Assembly (NCBI RefSeq): GCF_016907755.1
Contig: NZ_JAFBCN010000001.1
Location: 3,224,001-3,288,000, forward strand
DNA length: 64,000 nt
Direction: 5' to 3'
From: Cellulosimicrobium cellulans
GTDB taxonomy: Bacteria; Actinomycetota; Actinomycetes; Actinomycetales; Cellulomonadaceae
Part shown: positions 198 through 60,215 of the stretch, one piece after another
How positions within the stretch are numbered: position 1 is the stretch's first letter
Layout: each line of letters begins with the position of its first letter
The notes under the pieces: generated by a model
Databases searched by the model: none
Seen by the model: only the letters and a program-made list of their open reading frames with translations
What the model was told of the DNA's origin: nothing
Position numbers and translations under genes: made by a program

Positions 198-941
198 ATG
201 GCCCGCAAGAACTCGGACAGCACCGGCGCGCCCGCCGCCGGCGAGCAGGTCGCGAAGCAGAAGAAGCCCAAGAAGCAGCGCTGGTACCACCAGGTGTGGG
301 CCGCGTACCAGATGACGCGCAAGCAGGACCCTGCGGTCACGTGGGTCATGCTCGGCGTGTTCGTCGGCATCCTCGCCGTCGCGCTCGGCATCGGCCTGTG
401 GTGGGGCCAGTGGGTCTACACGCTCATCGTCGGCATCCCGTTCGCGGCGCTGGGCGCGATGTTCGTGCTCACGCGCCGCGCCGAGCGCGCCGCCTACCAG
501 CAGATCGAGGGTCAGCCCGGCGCAGCGCGCGCCGCGCTCGGGACGATCCGCCGCGGCTGGACGTTCGACGAGGAGCCGGTCGCGATCGACCCGCGCACGC
601 AGGACCTCGTGTTCCGCGGCGTCGGCCGGGCGGGTGTCGTGCTGGTGAGCGAGGGTCCGGCGCACCGCGCGAAGCGTCAGCTCGACGCCGAGCGCAAGCG
701 CGTCGCGCGCGTGCTGCCGAACGTGCCGATCACGACGATCCAGGTCGGCGACGAGGAGGGCCAGGTCGCCCTCCCCAAGCTCCCGCGCGCCGTCCAGAAG
801 CTCAAGCCGTCGCTCACCAAGCCGGAGACGGCCGAGGTGTCCAAGCGTCTGCGCGCCCTCGGGGTCTCGCGCCTGCCGATCCCCAAGGGCATCGACCCGA
901 CGCGCGCCCGCCCCGACCGCAAGGGCCTCAAGGGTCGCTGA
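198..941 (+). CDS. DUF4191 domain-containing membrane protein
   Basis: This is a 247-residue actinobacterial DUF4191 protein of unknown function. The N-terminus is lysine-rich and cytoplasmic (KQKKPKKQRW). Two closely spaced hydrophobic segments follow at about residues 49-70 and 73-95, and then a soluble basic C-terminal domain of about 150 residues ending in an Arg/Lys-rich tail. The length is normal for the family. It is followed by a convergent RDD gene and glnA1, the arrangement seen in many actinobacteria, where DUF4191 genes sit between lipoate genes and glnA. The ATG start is preceded by a short gap after the IS remnant, so the IS may have removed or replaced the original upstream neighbour. 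Confidence 0.9.
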   Translation: MARKNSDSTGAPAAGEQVAKQKKPKKQRWYHQVWAAYQMTRKQDPAVTWVMLGVFVGILAVALGIGLWWGQWVYTLIVGIPFAALGAMFVLTRRAERAAYQQIEGQPGAARAALGTIRRGWTFDEEPVAIDPRTQDLVFRGVGRAGVVLVSEGPAHRAKRQLDAERKRVARVLPNVPITTIQVGDEEGQVALPKLPRAVQKLKPSLTKPETAEVSKRLRALGVSRLPIPKGIDPTRARPDRKGLKGR

Positions 942-4108: not shown

Positions 4109-4484
4109 CCAGGCACGCGTTGACGCGGACCCGAACTACAACCCCGCCACCGCACCGTCCCAGATCCGCAGGGCCCGCGGCGGCATCATCCCCGGCATGC
4201 CCTCGTCCACCGACAACCTGCGCGCCGACGTCGCGTCCGGCGAGTACCTCGTCAACGCCGACGCCACCGCGAAGAACCGGCAGCTCCTCGACGCGATCAA
4301 CCAGGGTCGCCAGCCCGTGCTGCCGCAGTCGGGTGTCATGACACCCACGTCCGTGTCGCTTGAGGGCGCGAACATCACCATCGAGGTCGACGGCACCAGT
4401 TTCCGCGGCTACGTCCGCCAACAGGCGCGTGTCGAAGCCACGTCGGCGATCCTTACCGCGCAGAAGCGGCCCGCGGCGCGCTGA
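4095..4484 (+). pseudogene. Phage tail tape-measure protein, C-terminal fragment
   Basis: The plus-strand frame ending at 4484 reads RARGGIIPGMPSSTDNL and GEYLVNADATAKNRQLLDA, the glycine-rich 'hidden stator-like' tail end common in tape-measure proteins of actinobacteriophages, followed by a short charged C-terminus. The preceding thousand or more residues are absent. The boundary with the integrase relic lies near 4090-4115. It is best explained as one end of a large internal prophage deletion. Identification is by motif recognition only. Confidence 0.6.
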
Positions 4485-4507
4485 ACTCGCCCCCATTGGT
4501 GAGGCCT

Positions 4508-4651
4508 CTAGCAGCGACCAACATCCGTGCCGATCTCTCCGCACTTCCCACATTGGAGCGCCTCGACACTGCCGAGCTTGTGCAGGAAGAACGGCCGACA
4601 GGCGTTGCAGTACGAGCAAAAGTGGTTCCCGATGGGCACTCCGTCGGCCAT
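4508..4651 (-). CDS. 47-residue zinc-ribbon-like small protein
   Basis: This short frame begins at an ATG that overlaps the stop of the preceding small gene by one base (TGATG), a classic translational-coupling arrangement. The protein has two cysteine pairs, CSYC and CGKC, about 24 residues apart, which can form a zinc ribbon. Small zinc-ribbon proteins are frequent in actinophage genomes. The function is unknown. Confidence 0.55.
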   Translation of the reverse strand: MADGVPIGNHFCSYCNACRPFFLHKLGSVEALQCGKCGEIGTDVGRC

Positions 4652-7625: not shown

Positions 7626-9338
7626 TCAGCCTGCGGCAGGGACTGCGGCGGTCTGCGTGGCGGCGGCGGGCACGTGAGCCGTCGGCAGCCCGGAGCCCGG
7701 ACGGAACCCGGCGTACTGCTCGGCCGCGGCCCGTGCGCACTCGTCCTGGTAGACGGGTCCCCCGCCGAGGTACACCGCCATCTCCGCGCGCTTGCCGGGG
7801 ACGTTGCCGCCGACGAACCAGGCGCCGGCCTTCTTGCCCTCCTCGTACATGACCGTGGCCCGCCCCGCGCGCTCGGTCTCCTCGTACCACCACTCCTCGG
7901 CCTCGCGCGTGGCCTCGAGCTGCGCGACGCCGTTCTCCCGCGCGTACGCGAGCGCCCGCTGGAGCCACTGCGCACCACGCTGGACCGGCACGGTGAGGTT
8001 GGACAGCGGAGTCTGCGGGCCGAGCGACAAGAAGAAGTTGGGGAACCCGTGGACGGAGATCCCCAGGTACGTCCGCAGCCCGTCCCGCTCCCACCGCTCC
8101 CGCAGCGTGACGCCCTCGCGCCCCACGACGTCGAACGCCGTGAGCGCGCCGGTCATGGCGTCGAACCCCGTCGCGAGCACGAGCACGTCGAGCTCGTGCT
8201 CGACCTCCTGCTCGCCCCCGTCCTCGGAGCCGCCGACCACGACGCCGCTGGGCGTGACCCGCGTGATCGGGTTCGCGAGCACGTCCACGAGCTCGACATT
8301 GTCCCGGTTGTACGCGGCGTAGTAGCCGTGCCCGGTGGGCGGGCGCTTGCCCATGAACGTGTAGGTGGAGGGGCTGAGCGCCTCGGCGGTCCGGGGGTCG
8401 GTGACGATCTCGCGGATCTTGCCGCGGAGGAACTCGGACGCGAGCGCGCTCGCCTCGGGGCTGGAGACGAGGTCGGTGAAGCACTCGTTGGCGAACCGGA
8501 AGCCCCCGGCCTCCCACCGTGACTCGAAGACCCGACGGCGCTCCTCGGCGTCGACCTCGAGCGCGGACCGCGTCGGGACCTCCATCGGCACGCCGAACGG
8601 GTGCTGGGCTGCGCGCTCGAAGACGGCGTCGTAGTCCGCCCGCAGCGCGGCGAGCTCGTCGGCGGTCACGGCGGGGCTCGTCGTCTCCAGGACGTAGTTC
8701 GGGGTGCGCTGGAAGACCGTGACCTGGGCCGCCTGGGCGGCGAGCTCCGGGAGCATCTGGATCCCCGAGGCGCCGACGCCGATCAGCCCGACGCGCTTGC
8801 CGGACAGGTCCACCCCCTCGTGCGGCCACCTCGCCGAGTGGTGTGCGGGCCCGGTGAAGGTGTCCAGGCCGGGGACGTCCGGGTACAGGGGGCGCGAGAG
8901 CAGCCCTGTCGCCGAGACGAGGTAGGTGGCGCGCAACGTCGACCCGTCGGCGAGGGTGAGGGTCCACTGGTTCGTGGCGTCCGAGTGCTCGGCCCGCTCG
9001 ACGGTCGTGCTCAACCGGATGTCACGCCGCAGGTCGAGCCGGTCGGCGACGAACTCCAGGTAGGCGCGGATCTCCTCGCCGCGCGGGTAGCGCTCGCTCC
9101 AGTCCCACTCGTCCCGCACCTCGCGGGAGAACGAGAACGCGTACGCGAGGTACTCCGAGTCGGTGCGCACACCCGGGTACCGGTTGGCCCACCACGTCCC
9201 GCCGACTCCCCCGGCGGCGTCGACCACGAGGACGGAGAGCCCGACCTCCCGCAGATGGTGGAGCATCGCCAGCCCCGAGAAGCCCGCCCCGATCACGACC
9301 GCGTCGTAGGTCCCGCCGCCGCTCGCCACATCGCCCAT
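7626..9338 (-). CDS. FAD-dependent monooxygenase, Baeyer-Villiger type
   Basis: A 570-residue flavoprotein monooxygenase. FAD-binding GAGFSG lies at residues 17-22, a second Rossmann motif GVGASG near 190, and the Baeyer-Villiger fingerprint FTGPAHHSARW (FxGxxxHxxxW) near 160-170. Enzymes with this fingerprint use NADPH and oxygen to turn ketones into esters or lactones; the substrate cannot be read from sequence. The start is the ATG at 9338 (MGDVASGGGTYDAVV); upstream residues are not homologous. It is a single gene, convergent with the chitinase and codirectional with the SLC13 permease 120 bases upstream, with no obvious pathway partners in the window. Confidence 0.9.
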   Translation of the reverse strand: MGDVASGGGTYDAVVIGAGFSGLAMLHHLREVGLSVLVVDAAGGVGGTWWANRYPGVRTDSEYLAYAFSFSREVRDEWDWSERYPRGEEIRAYLEFVADRLDLRRDIRLSTTVERAEHSDATNQWTLTLADGSTLRATYLVSATGLLSRPLYPDVPGLDTFTGPAHHSARWPHEGVDLSGKRVGLIGVGASGIQMLPELAAQAAQVTVFQRTPNYVLETTSPAVTADELAALRADYDAVFERAAQHPFGVPMEVPTRSALEVDAEERRRVFESRWEAGGFRFANECFTDLVSSPEASALASEFLRGKIREIVTDPRTAEALSPSTYTFMGKRPPTGHGYYAAYNRDNVELVDVLANPITRVTPSGVVVGGSEDGGEQEVEHELDVLVLATGFDAMTGALTAFDVVGREGVTLRERWERDGLRTYLGISVHGFPNFFLSLGPQTPLSNLTVPVQRGAQWLQRALAYARENGVAQLEATREAEEWWYEETERAGRATVMYEEGKKAGAWFVGGNVPGKRAEMAVYLGGGPVYQDECARAAAEQYAGFRPGSGLPTAHVPAAATQTAAVPAAG

Positions 9339-45252: not shown

Positions 45253-47753
45253 TGCGCACCCCCGGCGACCCAGGCGCCGAGGCCGTCGCGCTCCAGGACC
45301 GCGACGAGCTCGCGCTCGACGAGCAGCCCCGCGCGCAGGTCGTCCTCCGTCACGTCGACGTGCCGGTCCAGCGCGGCGGCGCTCGTCCCGGTCCGCGCCG
45401 CGACGCGCTCCGCGAGCCGGTGCGTCTCGGTGGGCCGCAGCCAGGTGAACGCCCGGCGCAGGTCCGGCAGCACCGCCCGGAACGCGTCCTCGTCGAGGCC
45501 GCGCAGCCCCTCGTCGACCGCGTCGAACATCTCCGGCGTGTGGAGCAGGAGGTCGGGGGCGGCGCGCATCACGCCGCCGAGGAACGCCGTCGCCGCCACC
45601 GGGTCCGCGCCGGGTGCGAGCTGCGCCCGGACACGCGTGACGAGGCCGTCGCCGCCCGGCCCGTCGTCCAGCTCGTCGTCGACGGCGGCGAACGCCGTGA
45701 GCGCACCCCGCACCGCGGGCGACGCGTCGTCGTCCTCGCGCACGTGCACGAGGGCTCGCGCCACGGACTCCGACGCCGAGCCCGTGCCGTCGCGGCCGGC
45801 GTCGCGCAGGTCCCGGACCAGGGAACGCAGCGCGACGAGGCTCGTCAGCGCGTCGTCCTGCGTCGCCTCGTCCGCGGCCGCGAGGTCCGGGACGAGGTAG
45901 GCGGCCGTGGCGAGCCCTTGCTCCGCGAGGTCGAGCAGCGCCTCGGCGTGCTCGCCGAGCTCCAGCTCCGTGCGCGCGCGCCACAGCCCCACGAGGCGCC
46001 GCATGCCCGCGACCACCGAGGCGAGCGACGGGTCGACGTCGAGCGTCGCGCGCACGAGGGCGACCAGCGAGGGCAGGCGGTCGGGCAGGCCCACCACCAC
46101 GCACTGCGCGACGAGCCGCGCCACTGCGTCGCTCGACCGCTCCTCCCGCGCCCGGTCGCGCGCGTCGTCGAGCAGCGCGACGGCGACGGCGTCGAGCGTC
46201 GCCCCGCGGTGGGAGAGCTCGACGAGCCGCGCCTCGACGAGCGGCGTCCACGCGTACTCCCACTCCTCGAGCACCAGGCCGAGGCCGCGCCCGGCCACGT
46301 GGTCGGGGCCGGAGACCCGGCGCGCGAACCCCAGCTCGAGGAACGCGCACAGCGCGAGGAACCGGCGCCGGTCGCGGTGCGCGGCCCGGCGTCGCGCGTC
46401 GAGCCGCACCGTCCGCGGCACCGAGTCGGACACGTCCAGGCGCAGCGCCCGCGCGCGCGAGCGCGCCTCCTCCACGAGCGGCGGCGACGCGCCCCCGGGC
46501 GGCACCTCGCCGAGCGCGCGCCCGGCGAACACCTCCGCGACAGCGAGCCCGAGCGGTCGGTCGCCCGCCGCGTCGAGGTCGTCAGCGTCCTTGACGTAGC
46601 AGGACGTGATCGCGTCGAGCAGGTCGGTGCGGCACGGCCACGGCCGCTCGCGCAGCGCCGCGAGCCGGTGCGCGTGCTCGACGGCGGCCTGCGACTGCGC
46701 CACGCTCACGAGCGCACCGCGGGCGCTCGCCCCGCGCCCGACGTCCACGAGGACGCCGTTCGCCGCGCCCGCGGGACCGCCCGCGGCGTGGTGCGCGGCC
46801 CACAGCCGGTCGTAGTACCCGGGCGTCGGCATCCCGGCGCCGTACCCGCGCAGCGCGTCGAGCCGCTCGTCGTCGTACCGCACGAGCCACGCGGGCGCGT
46901 CGGCCAGGTCGCCGTACCCGCCCGCCGGGCGGCGAGCGACGACGGCCTCGCCGTGCGTGCTCCCCGACAGCGCCTCGACGAGGGCGAGCGTGTGGAACGC
47001 GCCCGTCACGACGACGACCGGTCCGTCAGCGCGCGCCGCGTGCTCGGCGACGCGCGCCGACATCCGCGCCTCCCGGTCGAGCGACCCGTCGGCCACGAGC
47101 GCCTCGTCCTCGTAGTCGAGGCGAGCGAGGGCCGCCCAGGCGAACACGTCGTCGGCGAGCTCGCGCCAGCCGCGCAGCCGCGCGGTGTCGCGTGCCTCGA
47201 ACAGGTGGTCCCACAGCTCGTCGTGGTCCCGGCACCCGAGGCGCTCGGCGAGCCGCGCGACGGTGCGCGAGTGCGCGAGGTGCCGCTCCACGAGGACGGT
47301 GCGGGCCGCCGGGCCCTCGCCGTCGTCCTCCGCCTGCCGCGCACCCCACGGGGAGTCGACGAACGCGAGCCGCGCGTCGAGGGCGTGCCCCGCCCGGAGC
47401 GCGACCCACTCGGGCGAGTACCGTGCGAGCGGGTAGAACCCCGCGCCGCGCGCACCGCCTCCCGCCGCGTCCGCGGGGTCGCCGGCGAGGCTGAGGACGG
47501 CGACCGGCGGGACCGTCCGCTCGTCGAGCAGCGCGGGCAGGAGCCGCGTGTACTCCTCCGGGCCCTCGACGAGCACGACCGACGGGCGCACCTCCTCGAC
47601 CAGCGCGGCGACGGCGACCGCGCACGCCGGGCTGTGATGGCGTACGCCGAACAGGTGCACGCCGTCGCGCTCGCGCAGGGTCACGAGGTCGCGGGCTGCC
47701 TGCCGCAGCCGGGGCGGCGCAGCGTCCCACGCGGCGCGCAGGGCTACCGCCAC
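45249..47753 (-). CDS. DUF5682 protein
   Basis: 834 residues with GTG start at 47753, ten bases inside moxR. The N-terminal region has VHLFGVRHHSPACAVAVAAL and VVLVEGPEEY; later comes VVVTGAFHTLAL. The G-x-x-H-H start, ExP strand and GAFH motif recall the TraB/ChaN/EreA-like superfamily, a fold with predicted hydrolase or heme-binding activity; this relation is inference. The rest is mostly helical. E. coli counterpart: yehM. A catalytic role in the MoxR-VWA system would be consistent with the conserved histidines. Confidence 0.8.
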   Translation of the reverse strand: MAVALRAAWDAAPPRLRQAARDLVTLRERDGVHLFGVRHHSPACAVAVAALVEEVRPSVVLVEGPEEYTRLLPALLDERTVPPVAVLSLAGDPADAAGGGARGAGFYPLARYSPEWVALRAGHALDARLAFVDSPWGARQAEDDGEGPAARTVLVERHLAHSRTVARLAERLGCRDHDELWDHLFEARDTARLRGWRELADDVFAWAALARLDYEDEALVADGSLDREARMSARVAEHAARADGPVVVVTGAFHTLALVEALSGSTHGEAVVARRPAGGYGDLADAPAWLVRYDDERLDALRGYGAGMPTPGYYDRLWAAHHAAGGPAGAANGVLVDVGRGASARGALVSVAQSQAAVEHAHRLAALRERPWPCRTDLLDAITSCYVKDADDLDAAGDRPLGLAVAEVFAGRALGEVPPGGASPPLVEEARSRARALRLDVSDSVPRTVRLDARRRAAHRDRRRFLALCAFLELGFARRVSGPDHVAGRGLGLVLEEWEYAWTPLVEARLVELSHRGATLDAVAVALLDDARDRAREERSSDAVARLVAQCVVVGLPDRLPSLVALVRATLDVDPSLASVVAGMRRLVGLWRARTELELGEHAEALLDLAEQGLATAAYLVPDLAAADEATQDDALTSLVALRSLVRDLRDAGRDGTGSASESVARALVHVREDDDASPAVRGALTAFAAVDDELDDGPGGDGLVTRVRAQLAPGADPVAATAFLGGVMRAAPDLLLHTPEMFDAVDEGLRGLDEDAFRAVLPDLRRAFTWLRPTETHRLAERVAARTGTSAAALDRHVDVTEDDLRAGLLVERELVAVLERDGLGAWVAGGAQ

Positions 47754-48880
47754 AGGTCGCCCGCCGCGGTGAGGAAGTCCTTCCAGCGCGCGTCCGAGCG
47801 CGCGCGCTCGCGCACCACGTTGTCCACGTAGTGCCGCAGGCGGCGCGCATCCTCCTCGTCGCCCTTGAGGGCGACGCCGCCCACCTGGCGCGCGACCTGG
47901 CCCGCGGTCACCGTGCCGTCGCCGAGGTACCGGGCCTCGAGCGACGCCGCGATCGCGACGTTCACGGCCTCGGCCGTCGACATCACGGTCTCGGGCCGCT
48001 TCACCGGGGCACCGCTCGCCGTCGTGCCCGTGCGCAGGTCCTGGAAGACCGTGACGAGCACCTCGAGCACGTCGCGGTCGAGCCGCGGACGCTCCGGGGC
48101 CGGACCGAGCTCGGCCGTCAGCCTGCTCTCGACGAGCTCCATCTCGAACGCGCGGTCCCGGATGGGCGCGACGGTCTCGAAGTTGAAGCGGCGCTTGAGC
48201 GCCGCGGACATCTCGTGGACGCCGCGGTCGCGCAGGTTCGCCGTCGCGAGGACGTTGAACCCGGGCCGCGCCGCGACGCGCGCGTCGGCGCCGAGCTCGG
48301 GGACCATGAGCTGCTTCTCCGAGAGCACGGACACGAGCGTGTCCTGGATCTCGGGGGCGCAGCGCGTGATCTCCTCGAACCGCGCGACCCGACCGCTCTC
48401 CATCGCCCGGAAGACCGGCGAGGGGACGAGCGAGCGCTCGCTCGGCCCCTCGGCGATGAGGAGCGCGTAGTTCCACGAGTACCGCACGTGGTCCTCGCTC
48501 GTGCCCGCGGTGCCCTGGACCGTGAGCGTCGACGTGCCGCTCGCGGCGGCGGCCAGGAGCTCGGACAGGAGCGACTTCGCGGTGCCCGGCTCGCCGACGA
48601 GCATGAGCCCCTGGCGACCCAGCAGCGACACGACCGCGCGGTCGACGAGCGGGTCGTCGCCGAAGAACTTCCGGCTCACGCCCAGCTCGGCGTCGCCCAC
48701 GACGAACGCGCGCACCGCGCGGGGGCTCAGCCGCCACCCCGGCGGGACGTCGGCGCCGCGGCGCGCGTCCGCTGCGGCGAGCGCCGCGAGCTCGTCGGCG
48801 TACCGGACCTCGGCGGGCGGCCGCAGCTCGCCCGGTCCCCCGGCCGCGACCTGCGCGTCACCGGTCGTCGTGCTCGTCAC
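47744..48880 (-). CDS. MoxR-family AAA+ ATPase
   Basis: 378 residues from GTG 48880. Walker A GEPGTAKS is at 96-103. The Walker B region reads VARFEEITRC, where the usual Asp-Glu is Glu-Glu, a variant to note. Sensor 1 is in LATANLRDRG and the arginine-finger region SAALKRRFNFE. MoxR ATPases remodel proteins together with VWA partners, as in methanol dehydrogenase or RavA-ViaA. E. coli counterpart: yehL. A 164-base spacer separates it from the upstream DUF4132 gene; downstream genes all overlap. Confidence 0.9.
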   Translation of the reverse strand: MTSTTTGDAQVAAGGPGELRPPAEVRYADELAALAAADARRGADVPPGWRLSPRAVRAFVVGDAELGVSRKFFGDDPLVDRAVVSLLGRQGLMLVGEPGTAKSLLSELLAAAASGTSTLTVQGTAGTSEDHVRYSWNYALLIAEGPSERSLVPSPVFRAMESGRVARFEEITRCAPEIQDTLVSVLSEKQLMVPELGADARVAARPGFNVLATANLRDRGVHEMSAALKRRFNFETVAPIRDRAFEMELVESRLTAELGPAPERPRLDRDVLEVLVTVFQDLRTGTTASGAPVKRPETVMSTAEAVNVAIAASLEARYLGDGTVTAGQVARQVGGVALKGDEEDARRLRHYVDNVVRERARSDARWKDFLTAAGDLWR

Positions 48881-49044
48881 CCGGGCTCCTCCTTCGTCGG
48901 GTCGCGGGCGTCGTGCCCGTGGTCCTGCAGGTCAGCGTAGGAGCCACGTCCCACACGACGGGCGGCGCGGCGCCGAGTCCCGACGCCGCACCGCTCCCGT
49001 ACCGCACCGTGCCGGTCGGTCCTGGCGCGGACCGACGAGCACGG

Positions 49045-52000
49045 TCAGTACTGGCTCTTGCGCTCCCAGTCGGGGTCGAACGATCCCGCCTCGGCGACGG
49101 CGACGTAGTCGCGGTACGCCTCCGCGACGAGCACGGGCGGCAGGTCCGCGATGCGCGCGGTCCCCCGGCCCGACGCGCGTCCCATGCGCTCGAACGTCAG
49201 GGCCGTCACCGCGGCCGCGATGTTCTCCTCGGGGACGAACGACCCCGTGAACTCGATCTGCACCACGACCCCCGCGCTCGCGAACGACTTCGTGTACGCG
49301 CTGAACCACCCGGCGTCCTCCGCCTGGGAGCGCGTGTAGCCGCGCTTGGTGGCGCGTCCCCGGATCGAGAAGCTGTCGGAAAACCAGCCCTTGTGGTCGT
49401 CGATCGCCGTCGCGCCGGCAGGGACGTCGGGCGTCGCGACGTCGAGCTGCGCGAAGAGCGGGGTCACCTCGTAGTCCGCGAGGTGCGCCGACCAGGCAGC
49501 CGTGGCGTCCGGACCGAGCAGGACCGCATGGGTGAGCCCGACCGTCGACCCCTCGCCGAGCACGACGTCCTCGTCGTCGGCGTCGACGAGCGCGCCGCCG
49601 TCGGGACGGAACGGGCGCGCCTCGTCCGTGCCGGGGTTCTCGACCCACACGAGCCGCTCGACGAGCCGCGACATCACCGGGTGGCCGAGCAGGTACTCCT
49701 GCCACTCCTGCGCCGTCCACGTGCGGCCCACGCACATCGCCTCGTAGAGCCGCTGGGTCTGCAGCGCGACGACCGCCTTGAGCTCCTTGCGGCTCGCGGT
49801 GAGCTGCTTCTTCGCGGCCGAGACGAGCTCGGGGTCGTCCTGCGCCCGCGCGGCCGGGAGCGCCTTGACCACCTTGCCCGCGTCGCTCGTGAGCTCGAGC
49901 GTGAACGCGGGGGTGATGCGCCCGACGTACTCACGGGACCCGAGGTCGAGGTGGAGCAGGCCGTCGTCCTCAAAGCCCGCCGTCTGGACCGTCCGGTCCG
50001 CGAGCTGGTCCGCCGTCCATCCGCGCCGGTCCGCGAGCTCGGCGGCGAGCCGCTGCGCCGTCTCCTGCACGGTCGCCTGCCGGAAACGGCGCGAGACCGC
50101 GAGGAGCTCCTGGATCGCGGCAGGCTGACCGTTCGCCGCGAGCGCCTGGACGAGCGCCTCGGTCTGCGCCCGGCGACCGACGTGCGCCTTCGCGTAGCGC
50201 TGGAACGTCGCGGCGAGCTCGCCACCCGGCATCGCGACCGTGAGCGCGAGCATCCCCTTGTCCTTGACCGCCGAGCCGAGGTAGGTCGCCTGGTGCTCCC
50301 GGTAGAGGTCGCGGTGGTGGTCCTCGACCGTCTTGGACGCCTCGACCGAGTAGTACTCCGGCGAGCGCTTGGCCCACGCCTGGTACTGGTCGTACCGCTG
50401 CTGCGCGCCCGCCGTCGCGTGCGCGTCGCTCTCCTGCGCCGACGGGTTGCGCGTGTCCTGCGCGACCCACGCGGCCAGCACGTGGCTGCCGAGGCGCGCG
50501 CGGTCCTCCTCCTGCAGGAGGGACAGGTATCGCTCGAGCAGCCCCGCGCCGCTCGGGTCCTTGAGCTTGACCGCGAGCACGACCCACCAGCGCAGGATCG
50601 TCGGGTCCACCGGCGAGCCGTCCGCCGCCCAGCGCGCGTCCGGCAGGGAGCCCAGGTCGAACCAGGACATGCTCACCGGCGCCTTGCCGCGCAGTCCCTT
50701 GGTCGCCTCCGCGAGCAGCACCTCCGGCGCGAGGTCGACCGAGATGTCCTCCCCGAGGACCTCGAGCGACGTGAGGATCGCCGCCCGGACGACCTCGCTG
50801 CGCTCCTTCGCGAGCGCGGCCCGCAGTGCGGGCACCGCGTCGGCGTCGCCGAGCCGGGCCAGCCACTCCGCGGCGGTGCGGCGCACCTCGGACCGGCCGT
50901 TGCCGAGCCCCTGCTCGGCCAGGCCCCGCACGCCGGGGTGCGTGCTCAGCGCCTCCTGCGCCGTCGCCCGGTACGTGCGGCCCTCGCCGAGCGCGAGCTC
51001 GGTGAGGCGCGGCAGGAAGGTGCGCGGGACGTGCGGGAGCTGCGCGAGCACCGCGAGCGCCCGCGCCGGCTTCGTCGTGCCGTACGTGCGCTCGCGGTCG
51101 TCCAGCGCCGCGGCGAGCCGGTCGAGCCGCCCCGCGTAGTACGGCCACGCGTTCTCGGGCGTCACCGTGTCCATGGCCCACCACGTGGAGAAGTACAGCT
51201 CGTCGATCAGTGCCTCGGCGTCGTCGCGACCGATCCGCCGCAGCGCCTCGTCGAGGACGCGCAGGTCGACGTCGAGCATGTCGCCCTCGTTGAGCCGATA
51301 CCAGCCGAACCGCTCGCTGTGGCCGCGCGCCTCGTTCGCCTGGAGCCGCAGCCGGTGCAGGAGGGTGATACCGGGGAGGCGCGAGAAGACGCCCGGTGCG
51401 GCCAGCCGGCGCATCGCGATGCCGCCCGGGCGACGCGTGCTCGTCCCGGACAGGAACGCGGCGAAGATCCGGAGGTCGTCGTCGGAGATTCCCGGCAGCT
51501 CCTTGAGGTCCTGCTCGACGGCCTGGCGACGCCACCGCGGCCACCCGTCGTCGTCCTTCTTGCCGGGGTGCGCCGCCAGCTCCGCGCGGGCGCGCTCGAG
51601 GGCGGTATCGATCGCGGCCCGCGCGGCCTGCACGAACTCATCGCCGAGCACCGTCTCCGGCAGGAGCTCGAAAGGCGGCACCTCGATCGCCGGCTCGTCC
51701 TCCTGCGCGGCGTCGAGCACGCGGGCACGCTCGACGGTGTCGCGCAGGAGCGTCGCGCGCGCCCCGGTCGACTGCTCGGCGGCCCGCTCGAGGTCGACCA
51801 GCCCGCCGTCGACCTGCGCGAGGCGCGTCACGACCGTCCCGAGCCGGGACGGCGCGAGGGTTGTGAGGAGCGGGGTGAGGATCTCGCGCTGGCGCTCACC
51901 CGGGAGCTGCGCGACGGCGGCCACCGCCGCCTCACGCACGCCCTTGCTCGTGTCCGCCGCGAGCCGAGCCAGGAGCGGGGCGAGCGCCGCCGTCGCCGCA

Positions 52001-52773
52001 GCGTCGGACGCCACGAGCTCGATCAGCTCCGTCCGCCCCGCGGCGCTCACGCCCGGCAGCGCCTGGGTCGCCACGTCGACGTGCGCGACCACGAAGTCGC
52101 GCGCCGGCTCGCCGAGGAGCGCCGGGCCCAGGTGGCGCGAGGCCCAGCCCGACGACGTCGGGCGCTCGAACAGCTCGCGCAGCACCACCGCCGTCGCGTC
52201 GGTCTCCGGCACGCCGCCCTCGACCGCGAGCGCCACCAGCAGGTCCGGCGTCCAGCGGTCGGGCGTCTGCTTGCCGTTCTTGCCCTTGCGGCGGTCGTTC
52301 GCGCGCCGCGACATGTCATTCACGAGCACCGTGAGCCAGCGCGGGTCGGCGGGGCGCTCGCGGTCGACCTCCGACGACACGGCGCTGAGCACCCGGCCGA
52401 TCCGCACGAGCTCAGGGATCGTCACCGAGTCGCTCAGCGTGTAGAGGTTGGACCGGGCAGTGACGGCCTTCGCGGAGGTCCAGCCCGGCACCGCGGTCTT
52501 GAGTCGGTCGTCCTGCGCGGGCGTCGTCCACGAGTAGATCCCCGACTGGCCCGGCCGCCCCAGCAGCACCTCGACGTCACCGCCGCGCAGCGCCTCGAGC
52601 TCCAGCAGCACCTCGGGGCCCTCTCCCCGGTGCACGTACGCGACCGCGCGGTCCGCGAGCGCCGGCGACTCGACCGCGAGCACCTTCAGCGCGTCGACGA
52701 GCCGAGCGCTCGGACGGCCACCTCCCGCCTGCTCCTCGTCGCGCCGGAACAGACCCTTGACCTTCTCGAGCAC
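49045..52773 (-). CDS. DUF4132 protein with HEAT-like repeats
   Basis: 1,242 residues from GTG 52773, preceded by GAGGTAGAGG. Helical repeats of HEAT type run through most of the protein (for instance EVRRTAAEWLARLGDADAVPALRAAL and VREAAVAAVAQLPGERQREI). The C-terminal DUF4132 domain carries WTAQEWQEYLLGHPV, LVWVENPG and IDDHKGWFSDSF-like blocks. E. coli yehI (formerly called molR) has the same domain. No catalytic motif is seen; the HEAT scaffold suggests an adaptor or sensor. It is the first gene of the six-gene cluster. Confidence 0.88.
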   Translation of the reverse strand: MLEKVKGLFRRDEEQAGGGRPSARLVDALKVLAVESPALADRAVAYVHRGEGPEVLLELEALRGGDVEVLLGRPGQSGIYSWTTPAQDDRLKTAVPGWTSAKAVTARSNLYTLSDSVTIPELVRIGRVLSAVSSEVDRERPADPRWLTVLVNDMSRRANDRRKGKNGKQTPDRWTPDLLVALAVEGGVPETDATAVVLRELFERPTSSGWASRHLGPALLGEPARDFVVAHVDVATQALPGVSAAGRTELIELVASDAAATAALAPLLARLAADTSKGVREAAVAAVAQLPGERQREILTPLLTTLAPSRLGTVVTRLAQVDGGLVDLERAAEQSTGARATLLRDTVERARVLDAAQEDEPAIEVPPFELLPETVLGDEFVQAARAAIDTALERARAELAAHPGKKDDDGWPRWRRQAVEQDLKELPGISDDDLRIFAAFLSGTSTRRPGGIAMRRLAAPGVFSRLPGITLLHRLRLQANEARGHSERFGWYRLNEGDMLDVDLRVLDEALRRIGRDDAEALIDELYFSTWWAMDTVTPENAWPYYAGRLDRLAAALDDRERTYGTTKPARALAVLAQLPHVPRTFLPRLTELALGEGRTYRATAQEALSTHPGVRGLAEQGLGNGRSEVRRTAAEWLARLGDADAVPALRAALAKERSEVVRAAILTSLEVLGEDISVDLAPEVLLAEATKGLRGKAPVSMSWFDLGSLPDARWAADGSPVDPTILRWWVVLAVKLKDPSGAGLLERYLSLLQEEDRARLGSHVLAAWVAQDTRNPSAQESDAHATAGAQQRYDQYQAWAKRSPEYYSVEASKTVEDHHRDLYREHQATYLGSAVKDKGMLALTVAMPGGELAATFQRYAKAHVGRRAQTEALVQALAANGQPAAIQELLAVSRRFRQATVQETAQRLAAELADRRGWTADQLADRTVQTAGFEDDGLLHLDLGSREYVGRITPAFTLELTSDAGKVVKALPAARAQDDPELVSAAKKQLTASRKELKAVVALQTQRLYEAMCVGRTWTAQEWQEYLLGHPVMSRLVERLVWVENPGTDEARPFRPDGGALVDADDEDVVLGEGSTVGLTHAVLLGPDATAAWSAHLADYEVTPLFAQLDVATPDVPAGATAIDDHKGWFSDSFSIRGRATKRGYTRSQAEDAGWFSAYTKSFASAGVVVQIEFTGSFVPEENIAAAVTALTFERMGRASGRGTARIADLPPVLVAEAYRDYVAVAEAGSFDPDWERKSQY

Positions 52774-53031: not shown

Positions 53032-54504
53032 ATGGAGCTGGTGTACCAAAGCGACGGAAAGCGCGTCGTCGTCAATCCCGACCTTCTCGTGATCGCCTGC
53101 GATCCACGCGGCCTCGAGCCGGTCATGGAATTCACCCCCCAGGAACGGCCACTGCTGGACGCTCTCCGCAACTTCACCTTTTACACGACGTGCCTACGGG
53201 TCTACCCGCGCACGACGCAAGACCGGGTCGTCATCCTCGCTCCCGACGTCGTCGAGTCGCAGGCAGGCCTCGTGCAGGGGTACCGCAACGAGACAGCGAA
53301 ACAGTGGGGTCTTCCAGCCGCGAACAGCGCCACGACCAATGTCGTCACGACATATCAGATGGTCGGGATCAACGGCGCGTCGGATCCTGCGACCCTCGCC
53401 GCACAGCGCAGCGCGTTCCTGGACGATCCGCCGTCGTGGTGGCCCTTCCAGCCCGGCCGGTACGAGATCGTGCAGGTCGAGGAGCATCAGGACGGCGCAG
53501 TCCACCCGGCCGTCAACCCGTTGTTCACGCCCTACTTCAACCAGTTCCCCGCCGCTGCGCTCGGCGCCGGGGCACCATGGCGATGGCTCAACATCCAGGG
53601 CATGAACGACACCGTGTACGTCCACGCGTCGACGTGCTTCGAGTCGGTCCTGCACTGCTGGTCCTACCTGAACATCCTTCTCGCCGCGAGGCCCCAGCTG
53701 CTCGCGGCCCCCAAGGACAGCACCATCGTGGTCATCGGCGCGGGTGTGAGCGGACTTCTCTTCGCGCAGCGTTTCATCGACGAGGGTTTCACCGACGTCT
53801 CGCTGCTGGAGTCCACGAACCGCTTCGCAGGCAAGACGCACTCGTTGCAGGTGCCGGACCAGGGCGGCACGTCCATCGCGGAGCTCGGCACGTGCTATCT
53901 GTCGCCGGCGTACGACGAGATGGCACGGGCGCTCTCGGAGTTCACCGTCGGCAACGCGCGCGTACCCGTGGCCCATGGGTCCGAACGCGGCATCGTCGTC
54001 GGCGCTCCGCCGAACGAGACGGTGATGGCCTACAGCGACTACGGGCTCATGGTCGCCTGTCAGTCGCTGGGGTTCGGGTGGCCGTGCAGCAAGGCGAAGC
54101 AAGATGCCGCGTACCTCAAGCTCATCGAAGCCGCCTTGTTCTACGTGGGCCTACGCCTCGAGATCTTCGGCACCATCGATGGTGTCATGCCGACCTCGAG
54201 GCCGGCCGGCGACCCGCACGGCGTCTTCTCGAAGACCTTTGCACAGTTCCTCGACGACAACGGCATGGGCGTGCTGAAGGGCTATCTGATGTACGCCTAC
54301 CAGGTGCAGGGTTACGGGGATCTCGACAAGATCCCGGCGTACTACGGTCTCGTGTGGATCACACCGGACATCGCGCAACCCTTCGGCGGTACGAGCGGCG
54401 TCACGGCCTGGCAGAAGGGCTGGGAAGACGTCTGGGACCAGATGGTCACGAAGCGCGCCATGAACATCACGCTGAACGCCCGCGTGGTCAGCGTTCGCCG
54501 CTGA
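53032..54504 (+). CDS. Flavin amine oxidase-like protein with apparently permuted halves
   Basis: 490 residues from ATG 53032. The FAD-binding Rossmann motif VVIGAGVSGLL lies at residue 236, not near the N-terminus. Residues 1-229 resemble the second half of NAD(P)/FAD amine-oxidase-like proteins (LLVIACDPRGLEPVMEFT; then a C-terminal-type HASTCFESVLHCW), while residues 230-490 are the first half (dinucleotide site, SLLESTNRFAGKTHS, ending NITLNARVVSVRR). Joining the end to the start restores the natural strand order. The gene has lower GC than its neighbours. Substrate unknown. Either a functional circular permutation or a rearranged pseudogene. Confidence 0.7.
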   Translation: MELVYQSDGKRVVVNPDLLVIACDPRGLEPVMEFTPQERPLLDALRNFTFYTTCLRVYPRTTQDRVVILAPDVVESQAGLVQGYRNETAKQWGLPAANSATTNVVTTYQMVGINGASDPATLAAQRSAFLDDPPSWWPFQPGRYEIVQVEEHQDGAVHPAVNPLFTPYFNQFPAAALGAGAPWRWLNIQGMNDTVYVHASTCFESVLHCWSYLNILLAARPQLLAAPKDSTIVVIGAGVSGLLFAQRFIDEGFTDVSLLESTNRFAGKTHSLQVPDQGGTSIAELGTCYLSPAYDEMARALSEFTVGNARVPVAHGSERGIVVGAPPNETVMAYSDYGLMVACQSLGFGWPCSKAKQDAAYLKLIEAALFYVGLRLEIFGTIDGVMPTSRPAGDPHGVFSKTFAQFLDDNGMGVLKGYLMYAYQVQGYGDLDKIPAYYGLVWITPDIAQPFGGTSGVTAWQKGWEDVWDQMVTKRAMNITLNARVVSVRR

Positions 54505-54606: not shown

Positions 54607-56322
54607 TCAGGGGTCGATGAATGCCCGAAGGTGCGTTCGCAGCTCGGGGTCCACGACGTAGACGAACGTCCCGCGCATCCCTCGCGTCAGCAGCACCGCA
54701 TAGATGTTCGTGACGAACGCCAACAGGTCGTCGTCGTCGTACGTGATTCCCCGCTTCGTGTTGTTCTGCATCCCCTTCGAGTCGAAGTAGGACCCCCTCT
54801 CGAAGTACAGGCGCCCACTCGCCGGGTCATAGCGCATGTCGCCGCCGATGATCACGCCTGCGTAGTTGAGGTCGTATCCCTGGACCGTGTGGATCGAACC
54901 GACCTCGTCGATCGACGTCGGGCTGCTGATCCAGTCCGTCGAGGTGCGGTTCCACGGCATCTGCAGACCGTCGAGGTCGATGTCGGGAGCAGAGGGGTCG
55001 GCCCGGCTGCGCCACGGAAAGGCATATCCCGCGACCAGACGCGCAAGCCCGTACTCGGCTTCCCGTGCGCGGATCGCGTCGCGCATCTCACCCAGATCGT
55101 CGAACATCCGCAGCTCGTAGCCACCGAAGCGTCGCGGCGTCGGGCTCTGCCCGGCGAGGATCTCTCGGATGTACGCGACGTAGTCGTGGCCCGCGAGGAC
55201 ACGCATCTGCGAGGACAGCGGGTAGAGGCGGTGCGCCTCGCGCGCCTCCTCGACCAACCTGTCGAGGACGTCGGTCGGCAGATCGGCCGGACGCACACGC
55301 TGACCCGAGTCGAGCAGGAAGATCTGGTGCCTGCTCTTCTCTCGAATCCAGTCGAGCTGGGTGATCGTGAGGTCGTCCGCACCGAAGAGCCGGTGATTGA
55401 TCGCGGGGAACTTGGCGTTCAGAACGCCTGACGCGAGGCTCGCGCGCTGGTTGAGCCGGTGAGTCTCGTCGACGATCAGCAGATCGAACGTCTCCGTGCT
55501 CTCGCCGACCTGGAAGGGCGTGAGCACCATGTCCTTGCGTAGACCAGGCGTCTTGCGGAACACCTCCTGGATCGAGGCACGCAGCGACTGCTGCGGCACC
55601 ACGAGGCCGACCTTGAAGTCCTTGAGAAGCTCGGGGTAGCCCTCCGCGAAGAACTCGGAGAACACCGTCTCGGCGCTCAGCGCCTCTGTGAGGTCGGCCG
55701 TCTCGATGTCACGAAGGAGCTTCATGAGGTAGATGCCGACGATCGTCTTGCCGGTGCCCGGGTCACCCTGGACGACGATCGTGCTCTGGCGGTCGGAACG
55801 CAGATCGTCGAAGAGGCCCTCGAGGATGTCCTCGACGGCGATCGCCTGGTCGGAGTTCAGTGCCTTGAACGGCGAGAGCTTGAACAGGTCGCTGTTCTCG
55901 ATCTGGCTGATCGACCGTGTGAAGAGCCCCTGCGCGCGCAGTTCCTCGAAGACCGCTCGGAACGTGTCGCGGTAGCGGCTCCGGTCGTAGTAGTCGGCAT
56001 CGACGATGCCGAAGTTCCGGTTCAGGACCTGATAGTGGCCGTCCCCCGAGAACCAGCGGATCAGGTGCGACTCGAGGTCGAGGCAGACCGACTTGTTGAA
56101 CGTCTCGTCGACGACGATGCGAACACCCCTCAGATGCGCCTTGCCGCTCGTGTCGAGGTGCTGTCGCATGCGAGCAACGGCGTTGAGGGTCTCGCCCACG
56201 TAGATGTCGCGATCGCCGTCGATCGCGTACACGACGGGCCAGTTGGTGAGCCGACGATCCCCCCGGCGAGTGTTGACCGCATCGGCATGGAACGGAAGGT
56301 GCTCGACCTCAAACCTGGTCAT
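54607..56322 (-). CDS. GIY-YIG nuclease fused to DUF2075 ATPase
   Basis: 571 residues from ATG 56322. Residues 28-95 are a GIY-YIG nuclease-like domain (VVYAIDGDRDIYVGETLN, Arg in RMRQHL, Glu in CLDLESHL). The second part is a DUF2075 (schlafen-group-3-like) superfamily 1-type ATPase with Walker A GDPGTGKT at 186-193, Walker B LLIVDETHRLNQR, and helicase-like motifs later (VGSIHTVQGYDLNYAGVIIGG). Its start overlaps the MazG-like gene by 14 bases, so they are translated together. Such nuclease-ATPase fusions with nucleotide pyrophosphohydrolases recur in defence islands; a phage-defence role is inference. Confidence 0.85.
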   Translation of the reverse strand: MTRFEVEHLPFHADAVNTRRGDRRLTNWPVVYAIDGDRDIYVGETLNAVARMRQHLDTSGKAHLRGVRIVVDETFNKSVCLDLESHLIRWFSGDGHYQVLNRNFGIVDADYYDRSRYRDTFRAVFEELRAQGLFTRSISQIENSDLFKLSPFKALNSDQAIAVEDILEGLFDDLRSDRQSTIVVQGDPGTGKTIVGIYLMKLLRDIETADLTEALSAETVFSEFFAEGYPELLKDFKVGLVVPQQSLRASIQEVFRKTPGLRKDMVLTPFQVGESTETFDLLIVDETHRLNQRASLASGVLNAKFPAINHRLFGADDLTITQLDWIREKSRHQIFLLDSGQRVRPADLPTDVLDRLVEEAREAHRLYPLSSQMRVLAGHDYVAYIREILAGQSPTPRRFGGYELRMFDDLGEMRDAIRAREAEYGLARLVAGYAFPWRSRADPSAPDIDLDGLQMPWNRTSTDWISSPTSIDEVGSIHTVQGYDLNYAGVIIGGDMRYDPASGRLYFERGSYFDSKGMQNNTKRGITYDDDDLLAFVTNIYAVLLTRGMRGTFVYVVDPELRTHLRAFIDP

Positions 56323-56629
56323 ACTTCGTGCTCCGGCCACGCGCCCTCTCGACCGGGTACTTCTCCTTCGTCGTCTTGAGCTTCTCCAGGACGATCCGAT
56401 CGACGTCGAGGCCGAGCCTGTCCGCGAGGAGCAGGCAATATGTCAGGACGTCGGCGAGCTCGGCTTCCACGTCCTCGGGAACGAAGTCCGAGCTCCACTG
56501 GAAGCACTCGAGAAGCTCGGCCGCTTCGATCGAGATGCTCTTCGCCAGGTTCTCCGGGGTGTGGAACTGCCCCCAGTCGCGCTCTGCGACGAACTCGCGA
56601 AGCGCCCGAATGACCTCTGTGTCACGCAT
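56309..56629 (-). CDS. MazG-like nucleotide pyrophosphohydrolase
   Basis: 106 residues from ATG 56629. An all-alpha NTP-PPase fold of the MazG/dCTPase (RS21-C6-like) type. Metal ligands sit in the ExxE-like EAAELLECFQW and the ELADVLTYCLLLADRL helix (ExxD). Such enzymes remove pyrophosphate from (d)NTPs. The start of the DUF2075 gene lies within its last codons, so the pair is coupled. Upstream lies a tRNA fragment rather than a normal promoter region; the transcription start is unclear. Confidence 0.88.
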   Translation of the reverse strand: MRDTEVIRALREFVAERDWGQFHTPENLAKSISIEAAELLECFQWSSDFVPEDVEAELADVLTYCLLLADRLGLDVDRIVLEKLKTTKEKYPVERARGRSTKYDQV

Positions 56630-58112: not shown

Positions 58113-60215
58113 ATGAGCCGTATCCGAAGAAACGATCTCGTCCGCGCTCTGGTGGAGCTTGGTACCGCCGAACGGTCTCCGGTCGAGGTAGTCATGACCG
58201 ACCGGGACAACCTGGCCGGCTGGCTCGCGACCAGACACGACCTGGTCTCCGAAACGGAGCCGATCGAAGCCGTCATCATGAACGGCGAGGTGCGGGCAGC
58301 GATCTGCTGGCCCTGGATCGTGACACCGGCCGGCGAGACCATCAATGCCGAGGCACGACTCTCAGCGGGCACAAGCCTGCCCGACCTGGCCACGTGGGTC
58401 GCGCAACCTGTCGAGACGCGAGTTCGCCGCGCAGGGACCGTCGTCGTGCCTGAGGGGCCGTTCCGCCACCACGACGAGCGCTGGAACCGCTTCACCTACT
58501 CCTACGACGGCTACTCCCGCTGGTACGGGGATACTCAGGTCGCATCCCGCGTCCTGGACGAGGCGCGAGCGGCCTCCGCGGAGGGGACGCTCGACCTCGC
58601 CAGTTTCGGCGTCGACACGCTCCGGGCGCTGCTCTTCTTCACCGAGCGCCGCGCGCGCTGGGCCGAGGAATGGACCGTCGTGGACAATTTCTGGGCGACG
58701 ATCATCACGGCCGAACTTCGTCGGAAGACCGGCGGCCTGATCACCGAGATTCCGGGCCGGGGCACCACGGCCCAACTCGCCGCCGCGTATCTGCTGGAAC
58801 AGGCGGAGACCTACGCTGCAGCGGTCCGATCGAGCGGCATTCACCAGCTCGTCCACGACCTGGCTGAACGAGTCCCGTCGCTGGGGCGCGAGGAACTCGA
58901 ACTCGAGCTCTCAGTGTTCGGCGAGTGGCTGGCGCATCTCACGATGATCGGCTCCAAGACCGAGATGGACCCGGCCGTTCGGCAAAGGGTGACGAAAATC
59001 CTTGCCCCCGCGATATCGGACTATGCCCAGTCGATGTGGTCACACGCAGCCCCCGTCGCACCGCTTCAGGCAGCCCTTCGCGAGAGACTCAAACGCCTCG
59101 GCTGGGCAGAGCACTACCTCGGCGCCTCCTCGGATCACGCCAAGACGAGGAAACGGTGGGATCTCGTAACACGTGATCGCGCTGGTGACATCTCCGGTCT
59201 GCACGTCGAGGCCGCCGGGTCGCCGCCCTTCACCGGAACCATCCCTCGCTCGGAGGGCCGGTGGTTCCGCGACCCCGGCGTCGGCATCTACTGGACTGAT
59301 GACCGTGACCGGACCGGCGTCCTCTCATTCGACGGCGGCCAGTCGACCGCAGATCTCGACGCCCTGAAGACCGACGTCGCGAACGCCGGCGGAACCGCGT
59401 CCGACGCCTTCGAGGCCGCCCGCAACGCCGCTCAGCAGCACCATGGCCCGGTCCGCACGAGGATCGGTCATCTTGACGCCGTGCGCAGCACTTACGGCGA
59501 ATTGACCACGCATGTCGAGATGCCGGCATCGGGAAGCGGCGGTTGGTGGGCGCACGCGGCGTCATGGGTCGTCGCCACCGAGCTCGCTCGCCGCCACTCC
59601 GACACGAGCATCGTCCAGGTTCACATGCCCAGCGGGATATCCGATCGACTCTGGGTGGGTCGGTGGCACCCCGAGAAGGAGCTCGACTTCACGGTCCTCT
59701 GGTCCCTCGATCGTGCCGGCGGTGCCGCGCACACCGGGCCGAACCTCATAACCTTCTCAGACGATCCATGGACACATCTGATCAAGTCGGGAGACCCGTT
59801 CGACATGATCGCGGAGCTGGAGCGCGCGGTCGGGTACCGACCTGTCGCTCGCGCCCGACCGACAACCTCCCGAACGCTCACCTACCGGCTCATCTCCCAT
59901 GTCATGTCGGCCACGGCCGTGACGCGAAGGCCGGTGCGTTGCCGCAACGTCGTGATCGACTCGTCGATGGGCTCGGTCGTCGACATTCCTGACGCGTTCG
60001 CGCACCAGCTTCCTGCGGATGCGCTCGAGCACGAGGCGATCCGCCGGGATCACTATCGGTACTGGGTCCTGGAGCGCGAGGGCCGAGCTCTTGCACTCGT
60101 GAGCGACCGCGGAAGAGGGTGGAGCGAGCGCGGCAAGCTCGATCTCGTTGCTGAGTACCGGTCCTCCCGTTCCATCGCGGTGACAGCAACGGCGTTGCTC
60201 GGTGGCTTCGTCTGA
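58113..60215 (+). CDS. Large hypothetical protein in island, 700 residues
   Basis: A single intact 700-residue frame from ATG 58113 with GGGGGTG upstream. Lower GC than the core genes. It is soluble, acidic to neutral, rich in Trp, Arg and Glu, without signal peptide or transmembrane helices. Several blocks look domain-like: FRHHDERWNRFTYSYDGYSRW, TGVLSFDGGQSTADL, and GISDRLWVGRWHPEKELDF. I recognise no family and no catalytic motif. It sits between a toxin pseudogene and an insertion element, followed by a 20-bp palindromic terminator. Confidence 0.75.
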   Translation: MSRIRRNDLVRALVELGTAERSPVEVVMTDRDNLAGWLATRHDLVSETEPIEAVIMNGEVRAAICWPWIVTPAGETINAEARLSAGTSLPDLATWVAQPVETRVRRAGTVVVPEGPFRHHDERWNRFTYSYDGYSRWYGDTQVASRVLDEARAASAEGTLDLASFGVDTLRALLFFTERRARWAEEWTVVDNFWATIITAELRRKTGGLITEIPGRGTTAQLAAAYLLEQAETYAAAVRSSGIHQLVHDLAERVPSLGREELELELSVFGEWLAHLTMIGSKTEMDPAVRQRVTKILAPAISDYAQSMWSHAAPVAPLQAALRERLKRLGWAEHYLGASSDHAKTRKRWDLVTRDRAGDISGLHVEAAGSPPFTGTIPRSEGRWFRDPGVGIYWTDDRDRTGVLSFDGGQSTADLDALKTDVANAGGTASDAFEAARNAAQQHHGPVRTRIGHLDAVRSTYGELTTHVEMPASGSGGWWAHAASWVVATELARRHSDTSIVQVHMPSGISDRLWVGRWHPEKELDFTVLWSLDRAGGAAHTGPNLITFSDDPWTHLIKSGDPFDMIAELERAVGYRPVARARPTTSRTLTYRLISHVMSATAVTRRPVRCRNVVIDSSMGSVVDIPDAFAHQLPADALEHEAIRRDHYRYWVLEREGRALALVSDRGRGWSERGKLDLVAEYRSSRSIAVTATALLGGFV

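Follow-up and report, generated by a model that had tools for sequence, protein, structure and literature searches.

Proteins of the flavin amine-oxidase superfamily (PF01593) usually carry their FAD-binding unit at the N-terminus, whereas the 490-residue protein encoded near the end of the window (the whole 64-kb stretch of Cellulosimicrobium DNA analysed here) carries it at about residues 231–270, with 230 residues ahead of it. A sequence-only reading of this locus had proposed that the two halves of the gene have exchanged places in a genuine circular permutation, and the question is whether this, or some other cause, explains the order. We find that the gene is very probably a genuine and conserved natural circular permutation of a flavin oxidoreductase resembling PAI, the fatty-acid isomerase of P. 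acnes (PDB: 2b9w), encoding a single FAD-dependent enzyme. The proposal made from the sequence gains its support from the scores obtained when the order of the halves is restored and from eight further genomes that hold the same gene. The features discussed below, with the evidence for each in brackets, are:

53032..54504, + strand: whole gene, 490 aa plus stop, very probably a circularly permuted FAD oxidoreductase of the PAI/amine-oxidase type (ORF, profile and comparison of relatives)
53032..53697, + strand, residues 1–222: putative equivalent of the PAI-like C-terminal half, PAI about 261–452 (profile, HMM and block placement)
53683..53724, + strand, residues 218–231: variable stretch that would join the old C-terminus to the old N-terminus (conservation in nine genes)
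53698..54501, + strand, residues 223–490: equivalent of the PAI N-terminal half, about 3–259, with the FAD-binding β-α-β unit (sequence and profile match)
53725..53841, + strand, residues 232–270: FAD-binding Rossmann motif (Pfam match and conservation)
54460..54504, + strand: new C-terminus, ending in NITLNARVVSVRR plus stop, the putative last strand ahead of the opened hairpin turn (comparison of nine genes)

Reading frame and recurrence of the gene

The forward-strand ORF at 53032–54504 runs for 490 codons without an internal stop, and its translation, which ends in NITLNARVVSVRR, places the first glycine of the GAGVSG FAD motif at G236, confirming the ORF and motif position read earlier. 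The earlier division of the protein at 229/230 also comes close, as the PAI-like N-terminus starts at about residue 226 and the joining stretch occupies about 218–231. Upstream of the ATG the frame stays open back to 48607. The longer ORF was ruled out because six of the eight relatives (L007, L009, L010, L011, L012 and L013) have an in-frame stop within 60 codons upstream, one that is lacking from L006, L008 and the window gene, and because the common DNA extends at most about 90 bases 5′ of the ATG except in near-identical pairs. All nine genes share an ATGGA start, with a GGAGG- or GGGGG-like stretch closely 5′ of each ATG. The GC content of the window gene at codon positions 1, 2 and 3 (63, 45 and 87%) and its pN/pS against the eight relatives (0.22–0.34 for residues 1–222 and 0.24–0.46 for residues 223–490) show that both halves are coding sequence under maintenance.

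The eight relatives come from a scan of species genomes, which located the same gene in two Oerskovia, two Isoptericola and four Cellulomonas records, each matching residues 1–490 at 73–82% identity. The CGCCGCTGA end is common to all nine genes, whose lengths range from 486 to 492 codons. Two of the copies (L010 and L011) are almost identical, at 99% of DNA positions, so that about eight cases, including the window, can be regarded as independent. Presence is patchy, with the gene in 5 of 150 genomes at the level of the family (the window’s own counted) and in one of the 17 listed for the genus. A search of the eight other genomes with the restored-order profile turned up, in every one, the two halves as adjacent matches in swapped order and nothing beyond these two at E up to 0.001.

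These observations bear directly on an assembly misjoin, an artefact confined to the Cellulosimicrobium genome, which had been named as a possible refutation. That genome is a single contig of 4.79 Mb in which a protein search returns one match, the permuted protein itself, and the search for the permutation elsewhere, proposed as a check, recovered the same swapped gene in eight other genomes. A misjoin is excluded by this shared order of the halves, and we regard its probability as negligible.

Order of the two halves

Residues 223–490 are readily recognised. They match 2b9w with E 1.6e-8 in a search of PDB sequences, and PAI is the closest solved relative, being the top PDB match in the sequence search as well as in Foldseek. 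The initial positions of the Pfam profiles NAD_binding_8 and Amino_oxidase match residues 234–306, and the GxGxxG...E unit of the PF01593 superfamily is present in all nine genes (G236, G238, G241 and E260), in which R264 and G267 are invariant as well. Residues 226–490 match positions 3–259 of unpermuted PAI-like proteins, a similarity that argues strongly for homology.

Residues 1–222, taken alone, resemble no PDB sequence or Pfam family significantly, and the two possible orders were for this reason compared against PAI-like proteins, using five unpermuted examples (L084–L088) from another family of the same phylum. In profile–profile alignment the native order places residues 226–490 on PAI 3–259 and ends at the native C-terminus with a score of 69.7, whereas the restored order (residues of the FAD half followed by those of the N-terminal part) aligns 4–348 with PAI 3–339 at a score of 78.6, crossing the join, continuing 80 residues into the native N-terminal part and reaching PAI 339 without a net indel. 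With the columns of the N-terminal part shuffled, none of 150 controls reached 78.6 on the PAI profile (top shuffle 77.6); on a mixed profile of PAI-like and generic proteins, 10 of 150 attained the restored score. Similarity to PAI does not, then, extend along the full length in the native order, the alignment passing the middle of PAI only after the order has been restored.

Single sequences behave in the same way. Against the PAI-like HMM the restored order scores above the native one in all nine genes, by 3.4 to 10.0 bits, and in the window protein the second matching stretch lengthens from PAI 172–259 to PAI 172–306, passing the join without a net indel. A single PAI-like protein as target likewise gives the restored order the higher score in 9/9 genes. 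In shuffle controls on single sequences, between 0 and 58 of 500 per gene do as well as the restored order, the window protein being equalled by 27 of 500. With PF01593 the window protein rises from 26.9 bits in the native to 39.3 bits in the restored order, both above the curated cut-off of 19.8, and the restored match includes a stretch, 189–320 on profile positions 166–283, running over the join (268/269); only four of nine native and two of four restored members have this profile listed at E up to 1. The earlier reading had named an equally good score for the native order as grounds for rejection, and it is the restored order that wins with PF01593, with the PAI-like HMM and in the profile–profile comparison.

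The gain does not extend to all relatives or to all modes of alignment. Against a generic amine-oxidase panel of 29 proteins, restoring the order brings no profile gain, so the suggestion that residues 230–490 followed by 1–229 should align with amine-oxidase-like proteins is borne out for PAI-like proteins and PF01593 and not for generic amine oxidases. A local rotation scan against 16 generic amine oxidases gains 1.9–7.8 bits over a wide span of cut positions, all of which keep 490/1 intact, and therefore singles out no cut. In forced global mode against PAI, the restored order cut at 216 scores 60.6, below the 71.2 of the native order, and the best cut, at 84, scores 78.1; residues 1–84 therefore add to the score and later ones cost.

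The N-terminal part and the new ends

Gapless placement of short blocks of residues 1–222 on a 452-column PAI profile indicates where this signal lies. Block 16–50 is best placed at PAI 273 (69 of 600 shuffles do equally well) and block 36–84 at PAI 293, on the same diagonal, which sets residues 16–84 on PAI 273–341. Block 160–190 is best placed at PAI 390, covering 390–420. Block 187–222 finds its best place at PAI 212, against the permutation, and its second at 417, on the diagonal of block 160–190 and flush with the PAI C-terminus. Blocks 1–35 and 100–130 lie off the expected diagonal, and residues 85–159 have no confident placement on PAI; since the two block diagonals differ by 27, about 27 extra residues would fall within this stretch.

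In a plain alignment, 15 columns between E38 and L216 are identical in the nine permuted N-terminal parts and five PAI C-halves. Global-alignment z-scores of the N-terminal part in the nine genes are 1.8–5.7 against the PAI C-half and 0.8–2.5 against the PAI N-half; against 16 generic amine oxidases the mean z is 0.28 on C-halves and 0.23 on N-halves. By itself the N-terminal part matches PAI with a score of 16.5, no better than the 17.0 of a reversed control. Sequence comparison thus argues strongly for the homology of residues 16–84 to PAI-like proteins and moderately for that of residues 160–222 to the PAI C-half. The earlier statement that the first 229 residues follow the order expected after the FAD half accordingly stands for these two segments in relation to PAI-like proteins; for residues 85–159 there is no evidence of it, and generic amine oxidases give no signal. 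In all, the segments homologous to one unpermuted protein occur in swapped order in nine genomes, with residues 85–159 unplaced.

Structure prediction returned poor models, with a mean pLDDT of 47.5 for the whole protein and 42.4 for residues 1–222 in AlphaFold. The alignment behind the latter model included PAI C-halves, which makes the exercise partly circular, so its fold matches are not independent. In an alignment built from fragments of both halves (A5), the C-half fragments fell mostly on the wrong part, and it was not folded. Foldseek with the poor whole model gave 2b9w as the only match under E 0.001 (E 7e-4, TM 0.24–0.27). With the poor 1–222 model its first rows were flavin oxidoreductases, namely 3ka7, protoporphyrinogen oxidases, nicotine oxidase, phytoene desaturase and 2b9w, at E 0.05–0.64, none of them significant. 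VIA-align set the same poor model, at Z about 3, on 234..424 of 2b9w (Z 2.9), 228..421 of 3ka7 and 268..472 of human protoporphyrinogen oxidase; its top rows were short matches to mostly unrelated proteins with Z up to 4.3, and for both models the VIA-align rows have intermediate Z values, equalled or exceeded by those of other proteins.

A reader might prefer a view with no permutation at all, in which residues 1–222 are a domain of unrelated origin joined to an FAD domain truncated by the loss of its own C-terminal half, and the lack of a significant match for the N-terminal part alone, like its lack of signal against generic amine oxidases, fits that view. Such a fusion leaves the score gain across the C-to-N join unexplained, together with the correctly ordered best placements of blocks 16–50, 36–84 and 160–190 along the PAI C-half, and would require nine maintained genes to do without the latter half of their FAD domain; we consider it improbable. 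A permuted gene could also be a decaying, non-functional remnant. The moderate pN/pS (0.22–0.46, not very low) and the presence in only 5 of 150 family genomes are compatible with decay, as is the fate of the PAI C-terminal AGE motif, which is found in 5/5 PAI-like proteins and is replaced by VHA, with loss of its acidic residue, in all nine permuted genes. Yet none of the nine has a stop or frameshift, the FAD motif is invariant and the length is nearly constant at 486–492 aa, which makes a pseudogene less probable still than a fusion of unrelated domains. The acidic residue of AGE is presumably an FAD contact, and because it has given way to VHA, contacts at that end of the protein would differ from those in PAI.

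A maintained, permuted enzyme remains the preferred reading, and the comparison of the nine genes suggests where its chain was opened and rejoined. The joining stretch, residues 218–231, keeps a constant length and has two invariant positions of 14 (0.14), the lowest conservation among the stretches scored (0.27 for residues 1–15, 0.40 for residues 471–490 and 0.94 for residues 201–217). Here the old C-terminal helix, predicted at about 203–218, would be connected by the short variable stretch to the FAD-binding strand of the old N-terminus. Set against PAI, the permuted protein has its new ends in place of a turn connecting the strands ISKVERV and VVKITVNG, and R490 and M1 would therefore lie in a β-hairpin turn of the FAD domain. 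A β-hairpin turn is a site where opening of the chain can do little harm. PAI’s first and last residues both have counterparts in the permuted protein, so no sequence need have been lost.

The protein would have the same three-dimensional body as PAI and the flavin-amine-oxidase fold, with FAD bound at the usual GxGxxG site. By analogy with the fold family, residues 232–270 would hold the adenosine and pyrophosphate of FAD, the opened hairpin sheet would have residues 1–30 on one side and 476–490 on the other, and the substrate domain would be built from a large share of the remaining chain. The flavin would be used to oxidise or isomerise a small substrate.

Known relatives, spread and origin

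PAI and L084–L088 share with the permuted proteins the FAD motif, the GYG-D-IPA segment and halves that are largely collinear once the order is restored. They differ in having unswapped halves, in lacking the approximately 27 extra residues of 85–159 and in keeping the acidic residue of AGE, and overall identity between permuted and PAI-like proteins is 13–20%. The flavin-containing amine oxidases of PF01593 have the same FAD-binding β-α-β unit, and the match to profile positions 166–283 runs across the join once the order is restored; nearly all listed members of PF01593, however, are in the ordinary order, from profile 1–2 to 439–443, whereas the permuted protein has the FAD unit at residues 231–270 of 490. 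Natural circular permutants occur among DNA and RNA methyltransferases, according to the portion of the literature consulted (PMC1282579); there too segments are swapped, reportedly with the fold virtually unperturbed, although both fold and cofactor are different. An engineered parallel, from laboratory work in which permutation serves to open flavoproteins, is LucY, a fluorescent protein that binds FAD and tolerates circular permutation; it is a different FAD-binding protein, and in the part of its report consulted the laboratory-made permutants fluoresce, none more brightly than wild type, with 4/10 poorly expressed (PMC4408115). We found no natural circular permutant among flavin amine oxidases in the literature searched, most subscription journals lying outside the search.

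No unpermuted close relative or intermediate was found in phylum samples of 396 (E 1e-15) and 386 genomes (E 1e-10), class samples of 296 (N-terminal part, E 0.001) and 246 genomes (E 0.001) or an order sample of 198 genomes (E 1e-5), samples that overlap and in which few candidates per genome were scored. The other matching genomes (45 in the class sample of 246 and three in the order sample) match through the FAD Rossmann part, those inspected including generic FAD enzymes. PAI-like isomerase genes occurred in one of 198 genomes in one sample; L084–L088 come from a sample of 60 genomes in one further family within the phylum, five of which had such genes, a distribution that is likewise patchy. 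Plasmids gave no match to the gene at 1e-5, only two chance-level matches to the N-terminal part (E 8) and none to PAI pieces; the restored sequence matched 194 plasmid records at E up to 10, none of them covering 80%, and the five inspected were other FAD enzymes or a fragment. Phages and viral contigs gave no match to the gene.

The permutation event predates the divergence of the nine known copies. A tandem duplication whose outer halves were trimmed away could have produced this gene, as could fission with the pieces fused again the other way round; no intermediate favouring either origin was found. The gene has probably moved horizontally, as suggested by its differing locations, patchy presence and composition. 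Flanks are common only within the two Oerskovia records and within the two near-identical Cellulomonas records; elsewhere the common DNA extends beyond the gene by no more than about 90 bases on the 5′ side and about 30 on the 3′ side. GC3 is 0.87 in the permuted gene and in the neighbouring Schlafen-type helicase gene, 0.85 in the MazG-like gene, 0.96 in the DUF4132 gene and 0.98 in the AAA_5 gene. No tRNA that might mark an insertion site is present in the 64-kb window. As for a functional partner, the flanks differ between genera, and single neighbours taken from each of five relatives have no common theme; the gene stands alone, and the enzyme most likely works without a fixed genetic partner.

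We lean, with slightly better than even confidence, towards a fuller account in which this is the first described natural circular permutant of the flavin amine-oxidase/PAI fold, a working enzyme with new termini in the FAD-domain hairpin, encoded by a single gene that travelled between Oerskovia, Isoptericola and Cellulomonas and whose unpermuted parent lineage is lost or unsampled. A natural permutant under selection would, if true, mean that a chain with its FAD unit in the middle can still form the FAD amine-oxidase fold, and it would mark a concrete site, the hairpin turn following NITLNARVVSVRR, where related proteins may be open to cutting. Further proteins of this kind may go unnoticed, because profiles that expect an N-terminal FAD unit read them as fragments.

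Several neighbours deserve mention. On the reverse strand at 54607–56629, adjoining the permuted gene, a Schlafen group 3 helicase-domain protein (PF09848, 577 aa) is encoded together with an overlapping MazG-like gene (PF12643), a pair that looks acquired and is perhaps defence-related. On the other side, at 47744–52773 (reverse strand), an AAA_5 (MoxR-like) ATPase lies beside a 1242-aa DUF4132/HEAT-repeat protein, both of high GC3, and at 58113–60215 (forward strand) there is a 700-aa protein with a C-terminal TY-Chap2 domain (PF22553). In one of the Cellulomonas records (L010), cross-matches between L010 and L011 revealed a 278-base repeat of 92% identity at 4279–4556 and 8857–9134, on either side of the permuted gene, possibly a duplicated element flanking it.
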